From: Nanobdellota archaeon
Lineage (GTDB): Archaea; Nanobdellota; Nanobdellia; Pacearchaeales; GW2011-AR1
Direction of reading: 5' to 3'
Assembly: GCA_018815925.1 (NCBI GenBank)
Contig: JAHIWS010000011.1
Span: 1 to 51,752, forward strand
DNA length: 51,752 bases
Position numbers and translations under genes: made by a program
Shown here: positions 18,692 through 45,449 of the stretch, piece after piece
Numbering within the stretch: position 1 is the first letter of the stretch
How the letters are laid out: each line of letters begins with the position of its first letter
The notes under the pieces: generated by a model
What the model was told of the DNA's origin: nothing
The model's database searches: none
The model's input: the letters and a program-made list of their open reading frames with translations, nothing else

Positions 18692-19489
18692 ATGGGAAAA
18701 ACAATTGGGGTGGTGTCTTTAAAAGGGGGTGTTGGGAAAACTTCTGTTGTGTCTGCTTTAGGAGGGGCTATAGCAAATTTAGGTAGAAAAGCACTTTTAA
18801 TTGATGGAAATTTTTCAGCTCCTAATTTGGGTTTGCATCTGGACATTATAAATCCTGAAAAAACAATCCATGATGTTTTAGGGGGAACAATTCATATGAA
18901 AGATTCTATTCATGAAATTGGGGAGTTGCTCCATCTTATTCCTGCTTCTGTTTCACATAAATCAGAGATTAATCCTTTTAAGTTAAAAGATAAGGTTAAG
19001 AGTGTGAAAAAAAATTACGATGCTATTATTTTAGATTCTTCACCTTCTTTAAATCAAGAAACTCTTGCAGTAATGCTAGCTTCTGATTATATTTTAGTTG
19101 TCACAACTCCCGATTACCCCACTTTAAGTATGACTCTAAAAGCAATAAGTTTAGCTAGGCAAAGGGGCACCCCTATTGCAGGTCTTGTTTTGAATAAAGT
19201 TTATAATAAGAATTTTGAATTATCTTTAGATGATCTTGAAAAAACCTCAGAGGTTTCTGTTATGGCTGTTATTCCTCATGATGTTAATGCTTTGAGAGCT
19301 GTGTCTGAAGCAACACCTTTTACATTCTATAAACCAAATTCTAAAGGAGGTAAGGAGTATAGAAAACTTGCATCAACCTTAATTGGAGAAAAAGAAAAAC
19401 CAGTTAAGCTGAAAAGATTTTTTAGATGGGTAAGCCCCAATAGGCCAGAAATTAACAGGGAAATTTTTTATGACAGGGTTTTTAAATAG
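18692..19489 (+). CDS. ParA/MinD family ATPase
   Basis: MGKTIGVVSLKGGVGKTSVVSALGGAIANLG deviant Walker A; YDAIILDSSPSL Walker B. Start moved to 18692. Confidence 0.88.
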   Translation: MGKTIGVVSLKGGVGKTSVVSALGGAIANLGRKALLIDGNFSAPNLGLHLDIINPEKTIHDVLGGTIHMKDSIHEIGELLHLIPASVSHKSEINPFKLKDKVKSVKKNYDAIILDSSPSLNQETLAVMLASDYILVVTTPDYPTLSMTLKAISLARQRGTPIAGLVLNKVYNKNFELSLDDLEKTSEVSVMAVIPHDVNALRAVSEATPFTFYKPNSKGGKEYRKLASTLIGEKEKPVKLKRFFRWVSPNRPEINREIFYDRVFK

Positions 19490-19498
19490 CCCCGCCCG
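19486..19498. repeat. Direct repeat of tRNA-Gln 3' end (candidate distal att site), copy 1 of atagccccgcccg
   Basis: 13-bp exact match to 21204-21216, which is the 3' end of the minus-strand tRNA-Gln; GC-rich in an AT-rich context. Confidence 0.75.
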
Positions 19499-19509
19499 TA
19501 TCGCAGACG

Positions 19510-19525
19510 TTTATTTATAAATAAA
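19510..19525. repeat. Perfect 16-bp palindrome TTTATTTATAAATAAA
   Basis: Self-reverse-complementary; sits between candidate att and the bipartite repeat. AT-rich, so could be TATA-related. Confidence 0.6.
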
Positions 19526-19526
19526 A

Positions 19527-19554
19527 CTCGGAGAATGTATGTTAAATGTTAAAC
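19527..19554 (+). promoter_or_regulatory. Bipartite repeat box, left copy: CTCGGAG-N13-TGTTAAAC
   Basis: Same boxes and identical 13-nt spacing as 21115-21142, with partial spacer conservation. Confidence 0.6.
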
Positions 19555-19601
19555 AATTTCATAATCCAAATCTTTATATTTGCATGTTTTTTCTCTTTTT
19601 T

Positions 19602-20129
19602 ATGGTTAAGAGACCTCTTGTTTATGGTTTATCTTTATTGTTGTCATATGTTCCTTTGGCTTCTAGTGTTCAGGCTAATGATGATTCAAAGCCAGATTCA
19701 TTGTTGGAACAAAAGGTGGATGAATCCCTAAAACCAATAACTCTTGTTGAATTCTTAATGTTGGATCAAGCGAATAAAATGATTGAGTTTTATAATGAGA
19801 TGCCTGATGAACTATATGTATCACAATCTTCTTTGGATGATACTACTTATGCAGACTTTTCTGTTCAACCTATTTGTTTGGAATATGTGGGTTTGGAGAA
19901 GCTTAGAGAAGCACACAAGGAACCTATTCGATTAGAGGGATATCAAAGTGAAAATCTTCAACGGGACGCACATGAGTTATTCATGGTAGCATATAAGAAT
20001 TTCGTTAGTAATGTTTTGGATTCATTAAGGACTGATGATAAGGCAATTGATTTTAATATTATAAATTTTGAAGGGGAGGATATAACTTTTATTAGCAATT
20101 ATCGAACTGTGATCTCCCGACCAAACTAG
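19602..20129 (+). CDS. Hypothetical secreted protein in the sigma-factor island
   Basis: Start chosen at internal ATG: MVKRPLVYGLSLLLSYVPLASSVQANDDSKP (signal-peptide-like); TATA-like tttatatt ~25-30 nt upstream. ORF track start is 19539. Confidence 0.65.
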   Translation: MVKRPLVYGLSLLLSYVPLASSVQANDDSKPDSLLEQKVDESLKPITLVEFLMLDQANKMIEFYNEMPDELYVSQSSLDDTTYADFSVQPICLEYVGLEKLREAHKEPIRLEGYQSENLQRDAHELFMVAYKNFVSNVLDSLRTDDKAIDFNIINFEGEDITFISNYRTVISRPN

Positions 20130-20154
20130 TCCTTTCACGACTTTTTAGTAATAA

Positions 20155-20162
20155 TTATATAT
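20155..20162 (+). promoter_or_regulatory. Archaeal TATA-like element upstream of the sigma factor gene
   Basis: ttatatat ~26-33 nt upstream of ATG at 20188, compatible with a leaderless transcript. Confidence 0.5.
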
Positions 20163-20187
20163 GCTTGTTTTTTCTCAGGTGCTAAAT

Positions 20188-21039
20188 ATGGATTACTCAA
20201 AACGAACAGAAGCATACTTTGCAGAATCAGGTAAATACAAACCGCTGTCTTTAGAGGAAGAGCAAACACTAGCTAGACTCATAATGCAAGGTGATGAAAA
20301 AGCCAGAGATAAGCTGGTAAGGCACAATTTGAGCTTTGCAAATTCTGTAGCAATCAATACTGCTAGACAAAGAAACGCTGAATCACATATAGATGACCTA
20401 GTTCAAGAAGCAGGTCAAGGAATGTTTGAAGCCGCAAAAAGGTTCGAGCCAAGAGGATACAAATTCATCAGTTATGCTGTGTGGTGGGTTAACAGACGTG
20501 TTAACGCATATCTTTCTGAGAATAAACTGATAAGAAAACCTTCAAGCCAAAACAAGGCTGCTTCCGAAATATTCCAAGCAAAAGACCATCTTGAAAAAAA
20601 TCTTCAAAGAACCCCTAATTCTGATGAAATCGCAGACTACCTTGCCACTCAAAACGAAAAGGAATACACATCTGCCCAAATTGATGCAGTTTTAGAATTG
20701 TATCGTACAACTTCAGCATTGTCCATGGATGCAGAATACTCTGATGATGACAGAACATTAATAGAGACAATTGAAGACGTTGGTGCAGAGTCCGTAGAAA
20801 CATTAACTCATAATAAGAATAGAAAACAATTACTTGACAAAGTTATTAACAATATTCTTCCGAAGGTTGAACGGGAAATAATTGAACTACACTACTGGCA
20901 AAACTTATCACTATCAGAAATCGCAGAACAACTTAAGCTCCCAAGAGAACAAGTAAGACAAAAAAAAGACTTAGCACAAAGAAGAATCAAAGCAAGTTTA
21001 AGCCACGAAGAAAGGCAAAAACTAAACTCATACATCTAG
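20188..21039 (+). CDS. RNA polymerase sigma-70 family factor (bacterial-type)
   Basis: Region 2: ARDKLVRHNLSFANSVA..HIDDLVQEAGQGMFEAAKRFEPRGYKFISYAVWWVNRRVNAYLSENKLIRKPSS. Region 3: EKNLQRTPNSDEIADYLA. Region 4: LPKVEREIIELHYWQNLSLSEIAEQLKLPREQVRQKKDLAQRRIKA. Start 20188 preferred over 20161. Confidence 0.9.
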   Translation: MDYSKRTEAYFAESGKYKPLSLEEEQTLARLIMQGDEKARDKLVRHNLSFANSVAINTARQRNAESHIDDLVQEAGQGMFEAAKRFEPRGYKFISYAVWWVNRRVNAYLSENKLIRKPSSQNKAASEIFQAKDHLEKNLQRTPNSDEIADYLATQNEKEYTSAQIDAVLELYRTTSALSMDAEYSDDDRTLIETIEDVGAESVETLTHNKNRKQLLDKVINNILPKVEREIIELHYWQNLSLSEIAEQLKLPREQVRQKKDLAQRRIKASLSHEERQKLNSYI

Positions 21040-21114
21040 TAAATATATTTTGTTACTTCCTTAACACACAACATAATTAAAAATTCTCAAGACTGCCATA
21101 ATACAAATACAAAT

Positions 21115-21142
21115 CTCGGAGTATGTTCGTGTTTTGTTAAAC
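21115..21142 (+). promoter_or_regulatory. Bipartite repeat box, right copy: CTCGGAG-N13-TGTTAAAC
   Basis: See 19527-19554. Confidence 0.6.
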
Positions 21143-21203
21143 GAAATGAAGAAAAAAATGCAGTGACACCATTTGAAAGCTCTGTGATGTCACGCATTGG
21201 TGT

Positions 21204-21216
21204 ATAGCCCCGCCCG
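21204..21216. repeat. Direct repeat atagccccgcccg at the tRNA-Gln 3' end (candidate proximal att site), copy 2
   Basis: 13-bp exact match to 19486-19498. Confidence 0.75.
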
Positions 21217-21313
21217 GATTCGAACCGGGGTCTTATGCTCCAAAGGCATAAATCCATAGTCCTTTATGTATTTTTTATAACACAATAAAGTTTGACCGCT
21301 AGACTACGGGGCT
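21205..21313 (-). tRNA. tRNA-Gln(UUG) with ~36-nt intron in the D arm
   Basis: Spliced model AGCCCCGUAGUCUAGCGGUCAA|GGAUUUAUGCCUUUGGAGCAUAAGACCCCGGUUCGAAUCCGGGCGGGGCUA folds as a 73-nt cloverleaf; intron ~21256-21291. Confidence 0.85.
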
Positions 21314-21350
21314 CTGAAAATCAGAGTGTATTTTTCTTTTTAAAGTTTTG

Positions 21351-21953
21351 TTAATGTTTCTTATATCTACCTCTTTTTTCTACTGCTTTTAAACGTTCTA
21401 GAATTTTTTTAGATTCATTTGAAGTTTTATAACCTGATTCAACAGCTTTCCAAAGTTGTTTATAGTGTTTGTAGTGCTTTGCTTCTAGTGCTTGTTTTAA
21501 AAGATGAAGATCTACTGCTTTGTCTTCAATTTTATGAGAAATGTATCCAAGGCCAAAGTCAATAAAGAAGATTTTGTCTTTAACTAAAATCATATTACTT
21601 GTTGTGAGATCTCCATGAATTATGTTATGGTCATGAAGTTTTGCAATGTCTTTTCCAATTTGTTTACATACTTGGAGTTTGTTTTTTAATTTGTCTAAAT
21701 GATCTGAGAGTTTTTTACCGTCGATAAATGGTATATGGATCATTCTTCCTTGTCCAGGATCTGCAAGAGGAATTGGACAGTTAATTATTTTAGAAGCTTT
21801 TACTAAAAGTTTATTTTCTGATTTTGTTCTTTTTTGTCTTATTTTTAGATCAAGTTCAGGAAGCCTATATTTTTTTAGAATTCTATCTTTTACTATTTTA
21901 TTTCTGATTTTTATTATGTTTGCTTCTGCACCTTGAGCTATGACTTTAGTCAT
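21351..21953 (-). CDS. Bud32 (KEOPS/Kae1-associated) serine/threonine kinase
   Basis: IAQGAEANIIK, KDRILKKYRLPELDLKIRQKRTKSE, NIIHGDLTTSNMIL, FFIDFGLGYIS. Confidence 0.93.
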   Translation of the reverse strand: MTKVIAQGAEANIIKIRNKIVKDRILKKYRLPELDLKIRQKRTKSENKLLVKASKIINCPIPLADPGQGRMIHIPFIDGKKLSDHLDKLKNKLQVCKQIGKDIAKLHDHNIIHGDLTTSNMILVKDKIFFIDFGLGYISHKIEDKAVDLHLLKQALEAKHYKHYKQLWKAVESGYKTSNESKKILERLKAVEKRGRYKKH

Positions 21954-34987: not shown

Positions 34988-37900
34988 TCAAATGAAATTA
35001 ATGAAGGTGAGGAAGAGTTTGGAGAATCAACTCTTTATAATAAAATACTTTTAGCAAAAGCCACAGAACAAAAAAGAACAATGGTTGAGTTATGTGATGA
35101 GTTTAAAGAAAGTTATTCAAATTCAAAAAAAGATGTGGGTTTTTGCGAAGGTTATAGGTTGTCTAGTTCTGAAATTTCAATTAGGGACATTGTTATTAAT
35201 TCAAGACTTAAGACTATTTCTTTTGAAGGAGTTTATGAACCTAATATTGATGATTATAGTGTTAAATTAAGAATAAATAAGGAGGATGTGGATTTAGGAT
35301 TAAATGATGTTTTTTATATGGGTGATTTTGGAACAGGAGTAGGAAGTGAAGGAGGAAATTGGAAAATAGATAGGGGTCCTGATGAGATAAAAACTATTCT
35401 TAAAAAAACTTCTGGTTATTCTGATTGCATAAAATATATTGATGATGTTTCTGCAGCTGGTAAAAAATATGAAATTGATCCTTTATTGTTGTTTGCTTTA
35501 ATGAAACATGAGAGTAATTGTAATTCTGATGCTTCAAATACTAATAAAGATAAAAAAGGAAATCCTATCTCTCTTAACATGGATATTGGTTTGATGCAAG
35601 TAAATACAAAAGCTCATTGTGGTGAGAAGAGAGATGGAGAAGAATTGTCAAGTGATTTTCGTAATTGTGTGGGTGAATTATATGATAAAACTAGAAATAT
35701 TTATGTTGGAGCTGATATTTTAAAAACAAGTTATTTGGCTACAAAAAATGGAAAAGAGTATAATGTGTGTGGAAGAAATATTCTTTATTCTGGGTGGGAA
35801 GCTGCTTTAAGAGGTTATAATGGTTGGGGTTGTTATCCTGGGCAAGGATATTATGTTGAGGATGTTACAAAACTTTTTAATGATTTAGGAGGAGGTTTTT
35901 CTGCTTCTACTATTACTGGTGATCAAGGTTCAGAATATATTAAATTAACAGAATTAACTGAGAATTATGCTAAGTTTGATATTCATGTTAAGGAATCAGA
36001 AGTTAAAGAAACAGTGTGGAAAACAGATGCAATGACTCTTGATTTAAACCAGTTTAAGACAGTTGGAAATTATAATTTCAGGCTTATTGATATTAATTTA
36101 AAGAAGTTTGCACAAGTTTCTGTTATACCTAGTATTGATTATGCTGGGACAAAAGCTAATTTTAGTTTTAGGCTTGGAATTGAGCAAAGAACTTTTAAAC
36201 TTACTCCTGAAAAAACAAAAGAAAAAATAAGTGTTTTAGATAAATCAATTTCTGATTTTGAATCCACTACTGAAGAATTAGGCAAATTTGTTAAGACAAT
36301 GAATAGGGCTTGTGTTGTAACAGGAACAGGGTTGATGTTAAAAAATCTTGTTAATAATGCAGGAGGAAAAGCAATTGCAAGAAAACAAGTTATGAGGAGT
36401 GAGGGGGGGTGGTATCAAACATGTGCTGATTTAGTTTCTAAGGGGACATATAAAAATGTGGATGTGTGTTTAGCTGATAATTCAGATGCTATTGAAAAAC
36501 ATGTTGAAAGATATTATAATGACATGAAATTACAGGAACAAGAGTGTGCAGATATACAAGATAAATATACTAAAAAAGGTGTATTAGGGCAAAGAACTGT
36601 TGATGATGAAGCATATTTAAAAGAGTGCATAGCTAAAACTAAGCTTAGTGTGTTGAATAATTTAGAAACTATGTTTCCAAATGGTGTTCCTTATGAGGGG
36701 GGAATGATTTCAGCTCAACAATTTGTTAATACTATTAATGAGAACACCACTACAATTGAAGAATGGAGGGATTTATCTTTAAATTCTAGATTTAATAATG
36801 ATGAAGGTTTATTAAGCAATATGGCAAAGAAAAGTGCTCAGAGTTCTATTAATGATATTTACAAGACTTCAAGTTTGATTAAAGAAACAGAAGATGCTAA
36901 AGTTAATATAGATGCAAATTCAAATTTGAAGAATGTTGGTTTGACAGTTGTTAGTTTACAGAATACTCAAATATTTCCTTATGAGGGGGGGGAAGTTGTT
37001 GTTTCTAATTTTGGAAATATCTCTGTAGATTCTAAGATTCAAAAAGTTTTGTATGAGGGGAATGTTTATACTCTTAAGTTAAATGAGTTTGAGACTAATA
37101 AATATAGGGTTGAAGAAGTTTATAATGAGGATGGTTCTACTATTCCTTTGGTTGCCTCACGAGAAATTTTATCACGTAGAGACAAAATTAAACAAACTTT
37201 AGTTTTTGAAAAAGTTGATGCTTCACGTTATGAAAATAAATATCTTAATCCTGTTGTGAGATATTTTGAAACAGAGCCATATAAAGGTGAGCCAGCTCTT
37301 GTTCCTGTTGATGTTAAAAATGGTTGGTATGTTGTTATGAAACAGACTCTTCCTGTTCTTGGAAACATACAAACTTATGATGCTTCTGGAATTCCAAGGA
37401 GTTTTTATTTATGTAATGTTGGGAAAAATGGAAATGAAGAAAATAGAAAATATCCTGATGATGAGTGTGGGTTAATTAATTTTGGAACAGGTCAGCCTGT
37501 AGATGAGTTTTCAGGACTTAGTAAGGAGAAGGCAAGTGCTCTTGTTTCAGAAGCTAGAAAAGCAATTGAAGATGCGCAAAAAGCTCATAAATCAGGAGCA
37601 AGGAGTGTGAGTATTAAAGGTCAAACAATAGAAGTTGGAGAGCCAATGGCAGATATTCCTGATATACAGTGCCAAGATACTATGTCTGCTTCTGATTGTA
37701 AATTGCTTTTTAATGTTTGTGACCCAGTTGTTTGCCCTTCTTCAAGATGTAACTTAGGTGGAAAATATAATGTTGAGAATGTTATTCAATCTGGAATAAC
37801 AGGTGGTATTTTCTTGTGTGCTCCTAATTTTATTGGATTTGGAGGAGATGTTGTTATTCCTGTTTGTTTGTCTGGAATTCATGCTGGATTAGATGGTTGG

Positions 37901-40309
37901 GTTCAGATTCAGAAATCTTATAGAGATTGTTTGCAAGATAGTTTAGACACAGGACAAATGACTGGAATTTGTGATGAAATCTATAGTTTACATGGTTGTG
38001 AGTTTTTATGGAGGCAAGGAATTCCTGCAGCTAAATTAATTATCCCTAAGTTTCTTGAAGTGATTACAGGGCAAAATGTTAAAGGAGGAGGAGAATATCT
38101 TGGAATGCAGACTGCTTTGAAAAATGCAGGTGATTCTGTTTCTTATTTTACAAATTATTATGCTAAAAATTCTTTTGCAGCATTTAAAGCAAGAAGTACT
38201 GAAGAAGTTGGAAGTGTTTTTTGTAAAAATTTTATTTCAGGAACATTCCCTAATTTTGATAGTGTTATGGATGTTTTAACAGAGCCTGTTTCTCCTGTTC
38301 AGTTTCATGGAAGATTTGAGGAAATTCTTTATACTACAGCTACAAATCCTCCAATGTCTCAGTATAAGGTTTGGTATTTTATTTATGCTGGAAAAGATAG
38401 TGGCTCTTATTACCAAGTTTATTTGACAGGAGCTCCTGAAACTTCTTATTATCAAGACACAGGACTTAAGAAAATTATTGCTTCTGGATATTTAAGTGCA
38501 GGGGAAAGAATAGATGAGGCACCTGACTTACTTGCTACTTCTGGTTATCAGCAATTGTGTATCAGAGTTAATGAACAGGAAGAATGTGGGTTTAAACAAG
38601 TTTCAACAGAATTTGGAGTTACTTATGTTAAGGACTTGTATATGAAAGAGCAGGCATCTCAGGAAAATATTAAGACAGAAAAAAATTGTATTGCAGGAAC
38701 AGCTAGTTTGTATAGTTTAGCTTCACCAAGTGGTGAAGGGGCTGCAGATGAATTACTTAATCCTTCAATATACAATAGGGGTATTATTAGAATTTGTGCA
38801 ACTAATAATCCTGGAAAATCAACAGATGCAAATTGGCAAGATCCAGAAAAATCAAGATGGAAAGATGTTGGTTATTGTGATGATAATACTATGAGGTGCT
38901 GGCTTGATAAAAAGAGTGTTGAAAATGTTATTGAAAATCAGGCTTTTGAAGATGAAGTTCTTGAAAAACATGCACAAAATCAATTAGATATTTTAATAAA
39001 TCAGGGAGGATATTTTAGTGGTTCTGAATTTACTCAAGCTGTTACTAAACTTAAAGAATTAGAAAATAAAAAATCTTATTCTGAAATAATAAGTAGTGTT
39101 AATTCTATTTTTGAAAGAGCTTTTTTAAATAATCAAAAAGCCAAATTATTATTTTTAAGAGGAAATGCTTTTGCTGAGTTAGCTAAGGGTTTGTTTAAAG
39201 GGGTTGTTGATGAGAAAGTAGGTGTTGCTGGAATAGGTTCTTCTTCAACTCAAGCAGGAAGAGAAATGGATGGTTTTGATGAACAAATAGTTAAAGGAGG
39301 TCCTGGTTGTTGTAATTATAAGACAGCAAGTATGAAAGAATCAGTTTGTTCTGTTGAGAGAAGTAGTTGTGATAGTGTTCAAGCTATGTGGATAGAAGAG
39401 GGGGGATGCATAGAGAATAATAAAAAATGTGTTTCTAGAGAAGAATTTGCTGCAGCTCAAAAATGTTCTGATGTTTGTGATGGGTTATTAAATACTTGTG
39501 ATATTAATGAGTGTCATGAACAAGATGGTTATGGTTTAAATTGTTTTTTTGTTGATTCCTTGTCTGATACTTGTGTAGATTGTGATAATCTTGCTTTTTG
39601 TAGTCAGCTTTCTGATGATAATGAGAAATGTTTAGATTCTAGGTGCGGAGGAAAATTAGGTTGTGTTTGGGAAAGTAATGGGTGTGTAAAAAAGGGATGG
39701 GAAGTTGTTCAAGTTAATGTTAAATTGACTTTGGAAAAAGCAATTGAAGAAACAAAAACCAGAAAAGGAAAATATTCAGAAAATAAAGATTTTGTAGATC
39801 AACTTTATAATATCAGTATTTTGACAGAAGAAGAGTATGTTGAAATTAATGGGAAAGGATTTTGGGATGTTTTTAATGTAGAAGAAGATATGAATTATTT
39901 GTTGAAAATATTATTGCTTAAATTAGCTACTCAAAGAAAAGCTGAAATAGACCAATCTTTTTTAGATATAGAGAATGAACTTGAGTATGATCTTGAAGTT
40001 CAAAATATAAATGAGTTTGTTGAAATTAGATATGTTCTTAATCAGACTTCTACTTTTCCTGACCTTTATTTTGGATATTATGAGAAAACAAGTCCTTTGA
40101 GGTGGGTGTGGACTATTGATTCTGGGTTAGAAAAATGGTTTGCTGTTTCGACTATTGATGAAATGCTAAATAATCCTCAGAAAAATAATCAATTAAAATA
40201 TTTATTAGGTGATGTTAATTCTAAAACAGATTTAATTAGGAGTTTGCAAGGAAAAGATTATGATTCAGGAAAGATTTTGGTTCTTAATGCTGGTGGAAAA
40301 GGATTGTGA
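34988..40309 (+). CDS. Giant Cys-rich protein with lytic transglycosylase (SLT)-like domain; probable continuation of 33512-34987
   Basis: SDCIKYIDDVSAAGKKYEIDPLLLFALMKHESNCNSDA...NMDIGLMQVNTKAHC...RNIYVGADILKTSY...AALRGYNGWGC. First ATG is at 35081, open frame from 34988. Confidence 0.75.
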   Translation, partial: SNEINEGEEEFGESTLYNKILLAKATEQKRTMVELCDEFKESYSNSKKDVGFCEGYRLSSSEISIRDIVINSRLKTISFEGVYEPNIDDYSVKLRINKEDVDLGLNDVFYMGDFGTGVGSEGGNWKIDRGPDEIKTILKKTSGYSDCIKYIDDVSAAGKKYEIDPLLLFALMKHESNCNSDASNTNKDKKGNPISLNMDIGLMQVNTKAHCGEKRDGEELSSDFRNCVGELYDKTRNIYVGADILKTSYLATKNGKEYNVCGRNILYSGWEAALRGYNGWGCYPGQGYYVEDVTKLFNDLGGGFSASTITGDQGSEYIKLTELTENYAKFDIHVKESEVKETVWKTDAMTLDLNQFKTVGNYNFRLIDINLKKFAQVSVIPSIDYAGTKANFSFRLGIEQRTFKLTPEKTKEKISVLDKSISDFESTTEELGKFVKTMNRACVVTGTGLMLKNLVNNAGGKAIARKQVMRSEGGWYQTCADLVSKGTYKNVDVCLADNSDAIEKHVERYYNDMKLQEQECADIQDKYTKKGVLGQRTVDDEAYLKECIAKTKLSVLNNLETMFPNGVPYEGGMISAQQFVNTINENTTTIEEWRDLSLNSRFNNDEGLLSNMAKKSAQSSINDIYKTSSLIKETEDAKVNIDANSNLKNVGLTVVSLQNTQIFPYEGGEVVVSNFGNISVDSKIQKVLYEGNVYTLKLNEFETNKYRVEEVYNEDGSTIPLVASREILSRRDKIKQTLVFEKVDASRYENKYLNPVVRYFETEPYKGEPALVPVDVKNGWYVVMKQTLPVLGNIQTYDASGIPRSFYLCNVGKNGNEENRKYPDDECGLINFGTGQPVDEFSGLSKEKASALVSEARKAIEDAQKAHKSGARSVSIKGQTIEVGEPMADIPDIQCQDTMSASDCKLLFNVCDPVVCPSSRCNLGGKYNVENVIQSGITGGIFLCAPNFIGFGGDVVIPVCLSGIHAGLDGWVQIQKSYRDCLQDSLDTGQMTGICDEIYSLHGCEFLWRQGIPAAKLIIPKFLEVITGQNVKGGGEYLGMQTALKNAGDSVSYFTNYYAKNSFAAFKARSTEEVGSVFCKNFISGTFPNFDSVMDVLTEPVSPVQFHGRFEEILYTTATNPPMSQYKVWYFIYAGKDSGSYYQVYLTGAPETSYYQDTGLKKIIASGYLSAGERIDEAPDLLATSGYQQLCIRVNEQEECGFKQVSTEFGVTYVKDLYMKEQASQENIKTEKNCIAGTASLYSLASPSGEGAADELLNPSIYNRGIIRICATNNPGKSTDANWQDPEKSRWKDVGYCDDNTMRCWLDKKSVENVIENQAFEDEVLEKHAQNQLDILINQGGYFSGSEFTQAVTKLKELENKKSYSEIISSVNSIFERAFLNNQKAKLLFLRGNAFAELAKGLFKGVVDEKVGVAGIGSSSTQAGREMDGFDEQIVKGGPGCCNYKTASMKESVCSVERSSCDSVQAMWIEEGGCIENNKKCVSREEFAAAQKCSDVCDGLLNTCDINECHEQDGYGLNCFFVDSLSDTCVDCDNLAFCSQLSDDNEKCLDSRCGGKLGCVWESNGCVKKGWEVVQVNVKLTLEKAIEETKTRKGKYSENKDFVDQLYNISILTEEEYVEINGKGFWDVFNVEEDMNYLLKILLLKLATQRKAEIDQSFLDIENELEYDLEVQNINEFVEIRYVLNQTSTFPDLYFGYYEKTSPLRWVWTIDSGLEKWFAVSTIDEMLNNPQKNNQLKYLLGDVNSKTDLIRSLQGKDYDSGKILVLNAGGKGL

Positions 40310-40655: not shown

Positions 40656-41582
40656 CTATTTCTTCTTACTCAACTCTTTTTCCTTTTGTTTTATTTTGTC
40701 TTCTAATTTGAGTTTTTCTATTAGTTCTTTATATCTGTTTCTTATTGTGACTTCTGTTATTCCTGCAATATCTGCTACTTCTCTTTGTGTTTTCTTTTCA
40801 TCGTTTATTAGAGCTGCTACATATAATGCGGCTGCGGCAATTCCTGCAGGACCTCTTCCTGAAGTAAGTTCAACATCTTCTGCTCTTTTTAAAACTTTTA
40901 ATGCATCATTTTGTGTTTTTGGAGAGAGTTTTAAGACACTAGAGAATCTTGAAATATAATCTTTTGGAGAGCTTTGTTTTACTTTAATTCCTAGTTTTCT
41001 TATTATAAATCTGTAAGTTCTTCCAATTTCTTTTCTTTCAACATCTGATGCTGTTGCCATTTCATCTAGAGTTCTTGGAATATTATAAGAACGACATGCA
41101 GCATATAAACAAGCAGCAATTACAGATTCCATTGATCTTCCTCTTACGAGTCCTCTTTGAAGTACATAGTTGTAGATTCTTGATGCTTCGTCTCTGACAA
41201 CATTTGGAAGATTAAGGTAGGAAGCGATGACTCTTAGTTCTGCCATAGCAAGCCTGAGATTTCTTTCAATACTTGTGGATACTCTTTCTTGCCATTTTTT
41301 GAGCCTTAAAAATTTTCTTGTTTGTTTTGGTTCTAATCTGTAAATATCTGAGATTTCCCCAACATTGGTTGTTAAACCTTTATCAAATTTTTGCATACTT
41401 GTTGGGGCTCCACCACGTCCTTTTTTTTCTGATTTATCAAATTTACCTTGCAAATCAATTCCTGTGTCTACCATTTTTTCTTCAACAACAAGGCCACAAT
41501 CATTACATATAATTTCGCCTAAGTGGGAATCAAAAGTGAGGTTAATACTTCCACATTCAGGGCATTTTTTTATAAAAGACAT
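40656..41582 (-). CDS. tfb: Transcription initiation factor IIB (TFB)
   Basis: CPECGSINLTFDSHLGEIICNDCGLVVEEK; cyclin repeats; TSGRGPAGIAAAALYVAALI. Confidence 0.97.
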   Translation of the reverse strand: MSFIKKCPECGSINLTFDSHLGEIICNDCGLVVEEKMVDTGIDLQGKFDKSEKKGRGGAPTSMQKFDKGLTTNVGEISDIYRLEPKQTRKFLRLKKWQERVSTSIERNLRLAMAELRVIASYLNLPNVVRDEASRIYNYVLQRGLVRGRSMESVIAACLYAACRSYNIPRTLDEMATASDVERKEIGRTYRFIIRKLGIKVKQSSPKDYISRFSSVLKLSPKTQNDALKVLKRAEDVELTSGRGPAGIAAAALYVAALINDEKKTQREVADIAGITEVTIRNRYKELIEKLKLEDKIKQKEKELSKKK

Positions 41583-45356: not shown

Positions 45357-45449
45357 GCCCCTGTAGCTCAGTCTGGATAGAGCGACTGCCTTCTAGATTT
45401 AGAAGATGAAGAAAGCAGTAGGTCGCAGGTTCGAATCCTGTCGGGGGCA
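45357..45449 (+). tRNA. tRNA-Arg(UCU) with ~18-nt intron at canonical anticodon-loop position
   Basis: GCCCCUGUAGCUCAGUCUGGAUAGAGCGACUGCCUUCUA[intron]AGCAGUAGGUCGCAGGUUCGAAUCCUGUCGGGGGCA. Confidence 0.9.

Follow-up and report, generated by a model that had tools for sequence, protein, structure and literature searches.

The gene with which this report is mainly concerned is on the forward strand at positions 20188 to 21039 of the window (the whole 51,752-nt stretch of DNA that we analysed), and codes for a 283-amino-acid sigma-70 family factor with regions 1.2, 2, 3 and 4, as identified through Pfam, PDB, tree, AlphaFold, Foldseek and alignment results. The mechanical ORF call extended from 20161 to 21039. 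We prefer ATG 20188, as did the preliminary description, because an AGGTG resembling a Shine-Dalgarno sequence and, at -32, a TATA-like element precede it, and both are missing at ATG 20161. Regions 2, 3 and 4, which the same description had found recognizable and proposed for comparison with the Sigma70 profiles, each scored above the curated gathering cut-off of Pfam, as did region 1.2: PF00140 for region 1.2 (E = 2.4e-5), PF04542 for region 2, the core-binding and -10-melting part (2.1e-9), PF04539 for region 3 (4.8e-9) and PF04545 for the region 4 HTH (4.7e-11). Matches to PDB sequences were to RpoS and SigA, with E values down to 1.9e-22 over residues 6-271, and NCBIfam and PDB searches together gave RpoS/SigA as the nearest characterized proteins. 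An AlphaFold model, based on an alignment of 29 sequences, had a pLDDT of 87, and its best Foldseek matches were again SigA and RpoS (E = 2e-11, nearly full length); owing to flexible links between the domains, TM-scores for the whole chain reached only 0.3-0.4. Presence of region 3 rules out an ECF sigma, which has regions 2 and 4 only. Repeats of TFB can give weak Sigma70_r4 scores, but four regions above curated cut-offs, together with the PDB matches and the domain order and fold of sigma-70, refute the identification as a generic HTH protein and leave a negligible chance that such a protein, or a TFB-like one, was mistaken for a sigma factor. We regard it as confirmed that this ORF encodes a true, complete, bacterial-type sigma-70 protein in a DPANN-type archaeal genome.

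Alignment with other sigma factors gave a mixed answer with regard to the residue losses that had been named beforehand as evidence against the initial reading. The aromatic residues of regions 2.3-2.4 are kept (GYKFISYAVWW), as are the R, E, R and Q positions of region 4.2 (PREQVRQ). On the other hand, EGN in region 2.2 is altered to EAG, and the region 2.4 equivalent of Q437 is R. The roles that we give these residues, melting of the -10 element by the GYKFISYAVWW segment, reading of -12 by Q437 and the role of region 2.2, are those of E. coli sigma-70.

The sigma gene is located within a foreign insert of 1,718 bp (19487 to 21204), which is defined by its border repeats, its absence in syntenic relatives and its foreign codons, and which is flanked on either side by a copy of a tRNA-Gln 3' end, TAGCCCCGCCCG. 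The conserved left neighbour, on the forward strand at 18692 to 19489, encodes a ParA/MinD-like ATPase (Pfam AAA_31/ParA; synteny), and the left repeat begins with its TAG stop codon. This repeat, detected in a repeat search at 19486 to 19501, is an attL-like copy of the tRNA 3' end, ATAGCCCCGCCCGTAT; its attR-like counterpart at 21204 to 21219, ATAGCCCCGCCCGGAT, belongs to the tRNA-Gln gene itself (21205 to 21313, reverse strand) as its 3' end. The conserved right neighbour, on the reverse strand at 21351 to 21953, encodes a Bud32/RIO-type kinase (Pfam RIO1; synteny). The insert left the tRNA-Gln intact and duplicated 12 nt of it. The exactly repeated part is short (12-13 nt), and the sequence TAGCCCCGCCCGNAT occurs twice in the whole 0.93-Mb genome; likewise, the direct repeats ATAGCCCCGCCCG(T/G)AT at 19486 and 21204 have no other copy in the 0.93 Mb. 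The preliminary description had suspected a chimeric join at about 19.5 or 21.2 kb, and both of these boundaries turned out to be tRNA-derived direct repeats; the compositional borders look like those of an integration site and not like an assembly join.

The tRNA gene carries an intron, and its anticodon was assigned as TTG by alignment with the tRNA-Gln(TTG) genes of relatives; ARAGORN, when introns are allowed, calls it Ile-tat, and the tRNA-Gln of one relative, G032, has the same intron. The intron-like insert, of about 30 nt, lies in the D-arm region in both genomes. The gene is overlooked by ARAGORN with default settings and at the Rfam gathering threshold.

A difference in codon texture between the sigma gene and its neighbours, noticed in the preliminary description, was evident in our measurements as well: the codon usage z-score of the sigma gene was -7.8 (genes of the window: minimum -4.5, median -0.2) and its GC3 was 0.29, versus 0.08-0.26 for window genes. 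The other gene of the insert, at 19602 to 20129, is also foreign by this measure (z = -4.4). According to the ORF list and Pfam searches, the insert has no more than two ORFs of substantial size, and an integrase is not among them; we therefore refer to it as a tRNA-site insert rather than as a complete integrative element; the integration enzyme presumably acts in trans or was lost. The insert resembles archaeal tRNA-targeted integrative elements in its duplicated tRNA 3' end, the intact tRNA, the existence of occupied and empty sites and its location at a hotspot (see below), and differs from them in its size of only 1.7 kb, its lack of an integrase gene and its short repeat. A pair of CTCGGAG(A/T)ATGT sequences, at 19528-19539 and 21115-21126 of the window, is situated about 40 nt inside the left border and about 80 nt inside the right one, and may represent a terminal element or chance.

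The gene at 19602 to 20129 (forward strand) encodes an orphan protein of 175 amino acids, with a signal-peptide-like N-terminus that we read by eye as MVKRPLVYGLSLLLSYVPLASSVQA followed by ND. No match to this protein was found in Pfam, PHROGs, NCBIfam, IMG/VR or 180 genomes of the family, and structure prediction gave no usable model (pLDDT 34). A 22-nt box, TTATATNTGCNTGTTTTTTCTC, precedes both genes of the insert and has no other mismatch-free copy in the genome. Each copy includes a TATA element like those of the host: in copy 1, TTATATTTGCATGTTTTTTCTC (19574 to 19595, forward), its centre is at -27 relative to ATG 19602, and in copy 2, TTATATATGCTTGTTTTTTCTC (20155 to 20176, forward), at -32 relative to ATG 20188. 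In a promoter model derived from 173 host genes, the TATA element had its centre about 27 nt upstream of the start codon, in the style of leaderless archaeal genes. Both insert genes have host-type BRE/TATA sequences upstream, which ranked at the 62nd and 69th percentiles of the 173 host promoters and among the best-scoring 2-3% of random stretches. A smaller model, built beforehand on 29 genes of the window, had pointed to an absence of host-type promoters, a result that the larger model reversed. Since the insert promoters score like those of the host, the insert genes look adapted to transcription by TBP/TFB, and we consider the host TBP/TFB machinery most likely, on the basis of this promoter model, to transcribe both of them. 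The portion of the box downstream of the TATA element might represent promoter sequence that was duplicated, or else a binding site. We also considered TAnnTTTG, which we take to be the consensus of the Bacteroidota-type -7 box, and rejected it: one copy of the shared box fits and the other has one mismatch, and such matches are frequent by chance in AT-rich DNA.

Comparisons with relatives showed that the gene order DHH - orf120 - ParA - tRNA-Gln - Bud32 - SRP54 is conserved, in agreement with the archaeal neighbourhood (ParA, Bud32, SRP54) originally described for the sigma gene, and that the ParA / tRNA-Gln / Bud32 order is kept by relatives in dozens of genera. Where the tRNA has the same orientation as in the window, ParA and the tRNA are -2 to 4 nt apart in genomes G005, G115 and G122 (1-4 nt in the last two), as compared with 1,716 nt in the window; in G032 the gap is 20 nt. 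In G005, the three bases of the ParA stop codon, TAG, are also the first ones of the tRNA 3' end, and exactly this arrangement results when the insert is removed from the window sequence. An empty site is thus seen in G005, G115 and G122, and, with its 20-nt gap, in G032. Among the 46 loci that contain all three genes, the 3'-terminal 15-mer of the tRNA is directly repeated between ParA and Bud32 in 10, including the window; by contrast, control 15-mers from the anticodon or D-arm regions are repeated in this interval in 0 of 46. The tRNA 5' end is repeated in 2 of 46 intervals, and none of the repeats is inverted. The ParA-Bud32 interval also contains different genes in different genomes. The recurrence of 3'-end repeats, with no such repeats of the control 15-mers, argues that this site is a hotspot with varying cargo. 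Across the family (19487-21350 in the window; loci L088-L179), the orientation of the tRNA flips and the cargo differs, and includes, as named by eye, a two-gene HTH/nucleotidyltransferase-like pair, LAGLIDADG-like ORFs, secreted proteins and transporters.

Transcription start factors differ between the domains, being TBP and TFB in archaea and sigma in bacteria. The contig that bears the sigma gene is 120,617 bp long and also carries genes for TBP and TFB, the latter at 40656-41582, where Pfam agreed with the earlier assignment. The only large RNA polymerase subunit of this genome is archaeal, a single Rpo1 in which A' and A'' are fused. Its clamp coiled coil is of archaeal type, and equivalents of R275, E295 and A302 of E. 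coli beta', which we take to be the known sigma-docking residues of bacteria, were not found there. Bacterial-style docking of sigma is therefore unsupported; the finding that the host core polymerase lacks these residues bears on the partner of the sigma factor and not on its family membership. The same genome contains a second sigma, ECF-like with regions 2 and 4 (L072:8866-9429; contig C28, at about 41.9 kb), whose gene is located in the RNA polymerase operon of the host, directly 3' of rpoB, fused rpoA and nusA. Counterparts in G013 (36% identity) and G088 (28% identity) precede the same nucleotidyltransferase gene, which we rejected as a dedicated partner of the ECF sigma: it is present in 92 of 94 genomes, with a sigma gene adjoining it at only 3 of 30 loci checked. 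Elsewhere in the window, a 1,742-codon ORF (35081-40309) has a transglycosylase SLT domain, which is odd for an archaeon, where bacterial peptidoglycan is not expected, and a 93-nt tRNA (45357-45449) was called as Pyl(cta) under one intron setting and as SeC(tca) under another.

No close homologue of the window sigma was found: the best matches were 38% identical in G372 (another family of the phylum), 36% in IMG/VR and 32% in Hymenobacter plasmids, and the gene is an orphan within its genus. A phylogeny of the kind suggested at the outset placed it, in a FastTree tree with many open forks, inside a clade with 99% support that comprises Bacteroidota primary-type sigmas, phage sigmas and some DPANN sigmas. 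As judged from this tree and the searches, the cargo sigma-70 was shown to belong to the Bacteroidota/phage primary-sigma lineage. The short RpoD/SigA proteins of Bacteroidota (plasmid copies in Hymenobacter and Bacteroides) have the same architecture and length, also without region 1.1; a primary-type protein of this group is 32% identical to the window sigma (E = 8e-32) and falls in the same clade. The motif KFISYAVWW is common to the Bacteroidota sigmas and the window sigma, whereas the other bacterial sigmas that we aligned have FSTYATWW. In place of the WWIRQ and the region 2.2 EGN of Bacteroidota, however, the window sigma has WWVNRR and EAG, and unlike them it has extra residues in regions 2.1 and 3 and an archaeal host. 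Phage sigmas, of PHROG 351 and of T4-like phage contigs in IMG/VR, are also similar (PHROG 351, E = 1e-40), and the nearest rows in the tree are sigmas of phages, with a support of only 80. One such contig (L221) contains phage structural and nucleotide-metabolism genes, of which the insert has none. No close relative was found in IMG/VR, and we rejected an archaeal virus as the source; the few contigs with distant viral sigmas that we inspected showed no sign of archaeal viruses, and one family was clearly T4-like.

Sigma factors were reportedly encountered in archaea in the single-cell study of Rinke and colleagues in 2013. Among 94 sampled genomes of the family, Sigma70 region 2 is present in 29, in very divergent proteins, which makes several independent acquisitions likely. 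These numbers, and the second sigma of the same genome, weaken the exceptional status that the preliminary description had given to the gene. The DPANN sigma-70 genes reported previously (fam00359) are likewise bacterial-type and occur in small archaeal genomes with TBP and TFB; they are prevalent in Woesearchaeota, and mis-binning was ruled out for them (Castelle et al., 2021; PMC8204110). That report established presence and left the mechanism open; here, the genomic vehicle, the empty site and the promoters are resolved. Since DPANN sigmas had already been described, the novelty is in the mobile setting, and none of the literature that we searched described an archaeal sigma gene inserted at a tRNA. 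A general tie of DPANN sigmas to tRNA genes was considered and rejected, as it held in about 4 of about 18 lineages, near chance by an estimate from tRNA density. In genus g45 (loci L074, L082, L083 and L084), the sigma genes of several species share a place beside intron-bearing tRNA-Ile and tRNA-Glu genes, and one species has two sigmas in tandem; another tandem pair is near tRNA-Ala in G268 (L288). Among DPANN sigmas, the one most closely related to that of the window (G372, L283) is encoded between S10/EF-1alpha genes and a tRNA-Lys.

In the aggregate, we are highly confident that the sigma gene entered by insertion at the 3' end of tRNA-Gln. The preliminary reading of a bacterial-type sigma with foreign codon usage thus stands, and is refined in that the gene is cargo of a small tRNA-Gln insert, next to the gene for an orphan secreted protein. 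In the explanation that we favour, to which we assign as a whole a probability of roughly 0.4, a small mobile DNA segment would have inserted at the tRNA-Gln 3' end, leaving the tRNA intact, and brought two genes, for the putative secreted protein and for a full sigma-70 belonging to the Bacteroidota/phage primary-sigma lineage. The sigma factor, keeping its DNA-melting and -35-reading residues, would regulate transcription for its element. It would bind to promoter DNA and contact the archaeal RNA polymerase, either in a non-bacterial way or with TFB, and might alter initiation at the box shared by the two insert genes. Such a function on archaeal polymerase is plausible, and we predict it tentatively; the shared box may, against this explanation, be only a duplicated TATA promoter, and the missing integrase, the shortness of the repeat, the clamp of the host polymerase and the altered positions in regions 2.2 and 2.4 of the sigma also count against it. 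A bolder version, in which the protein is a working alternative initiation factor that directs the archaeal polymerase to the box of its cassette, and in which cassettes repeatedly bring sigmas into DPANN, appears to us unlikely.

The gene might instead be a recently captured passenger, integrated and transcribed through a TATA-like sequence of the kind easily found in an AT-rich genome, with no partner and destined to decay. Its foreign codons, its orphan status within the genus and lack of close homologues, the archaeal-type clamp without bacterial docking residues, and a scattered occurrence in which the sigmas differ from genus to genus would all suit this view. Yet the reading frame is intact across 283 codons with all regions present, the promoters of both insert genes score like host promoters, and a related sigma keeps its place beside tRNA genes in several g45 species, from which it follows that some DPANN sigmas persist; we therefore find it doubtful, though deserving of serious attention. 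Alternatively, the protein could serve a mobile element or virus by blocking TFB/TFE at promoter DNA or at the clamp, so that host transcription falls, without initiating transcription itself. The retained DNA-contacting residues, opposite a polymerase that is not bacterial, and the phage sigmas among its best relatives are compatible with such a silencer, but viral genes are absent from the insert, and we think it quite improbable. Finally, the differing codon usage and the origin of the sequence in a metagenome assembly could suggest that the assembly is chimeric, or that bacterial or phage DNA contaminated it. We rejected this as very improbable: TFB and TBP are on the same 120-kb contig, archaeal genes in conserved order directly adjoin the insert on both sides, the borders fall exactly at tRNA 3'-end repeats of which similar ones occur at the same site in other genomes, host-type BRE/TATA sequences precede both genes, and mis-binning was excluded for DPANN sigmas (Castelle et al., 2021; PMC8204110).

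Bacterial sigmas in archaea have been listed before; the locus described here adds a concrete route of entry, insertion at the tRNA-Gln 3' end. Its borders are defined, an empty site is available to compare it with, and it has promoters that are candidates for study, so that one may ask in a well-delimited in vitro experiment whether a sigma factor can work with an archaeal polymerase.
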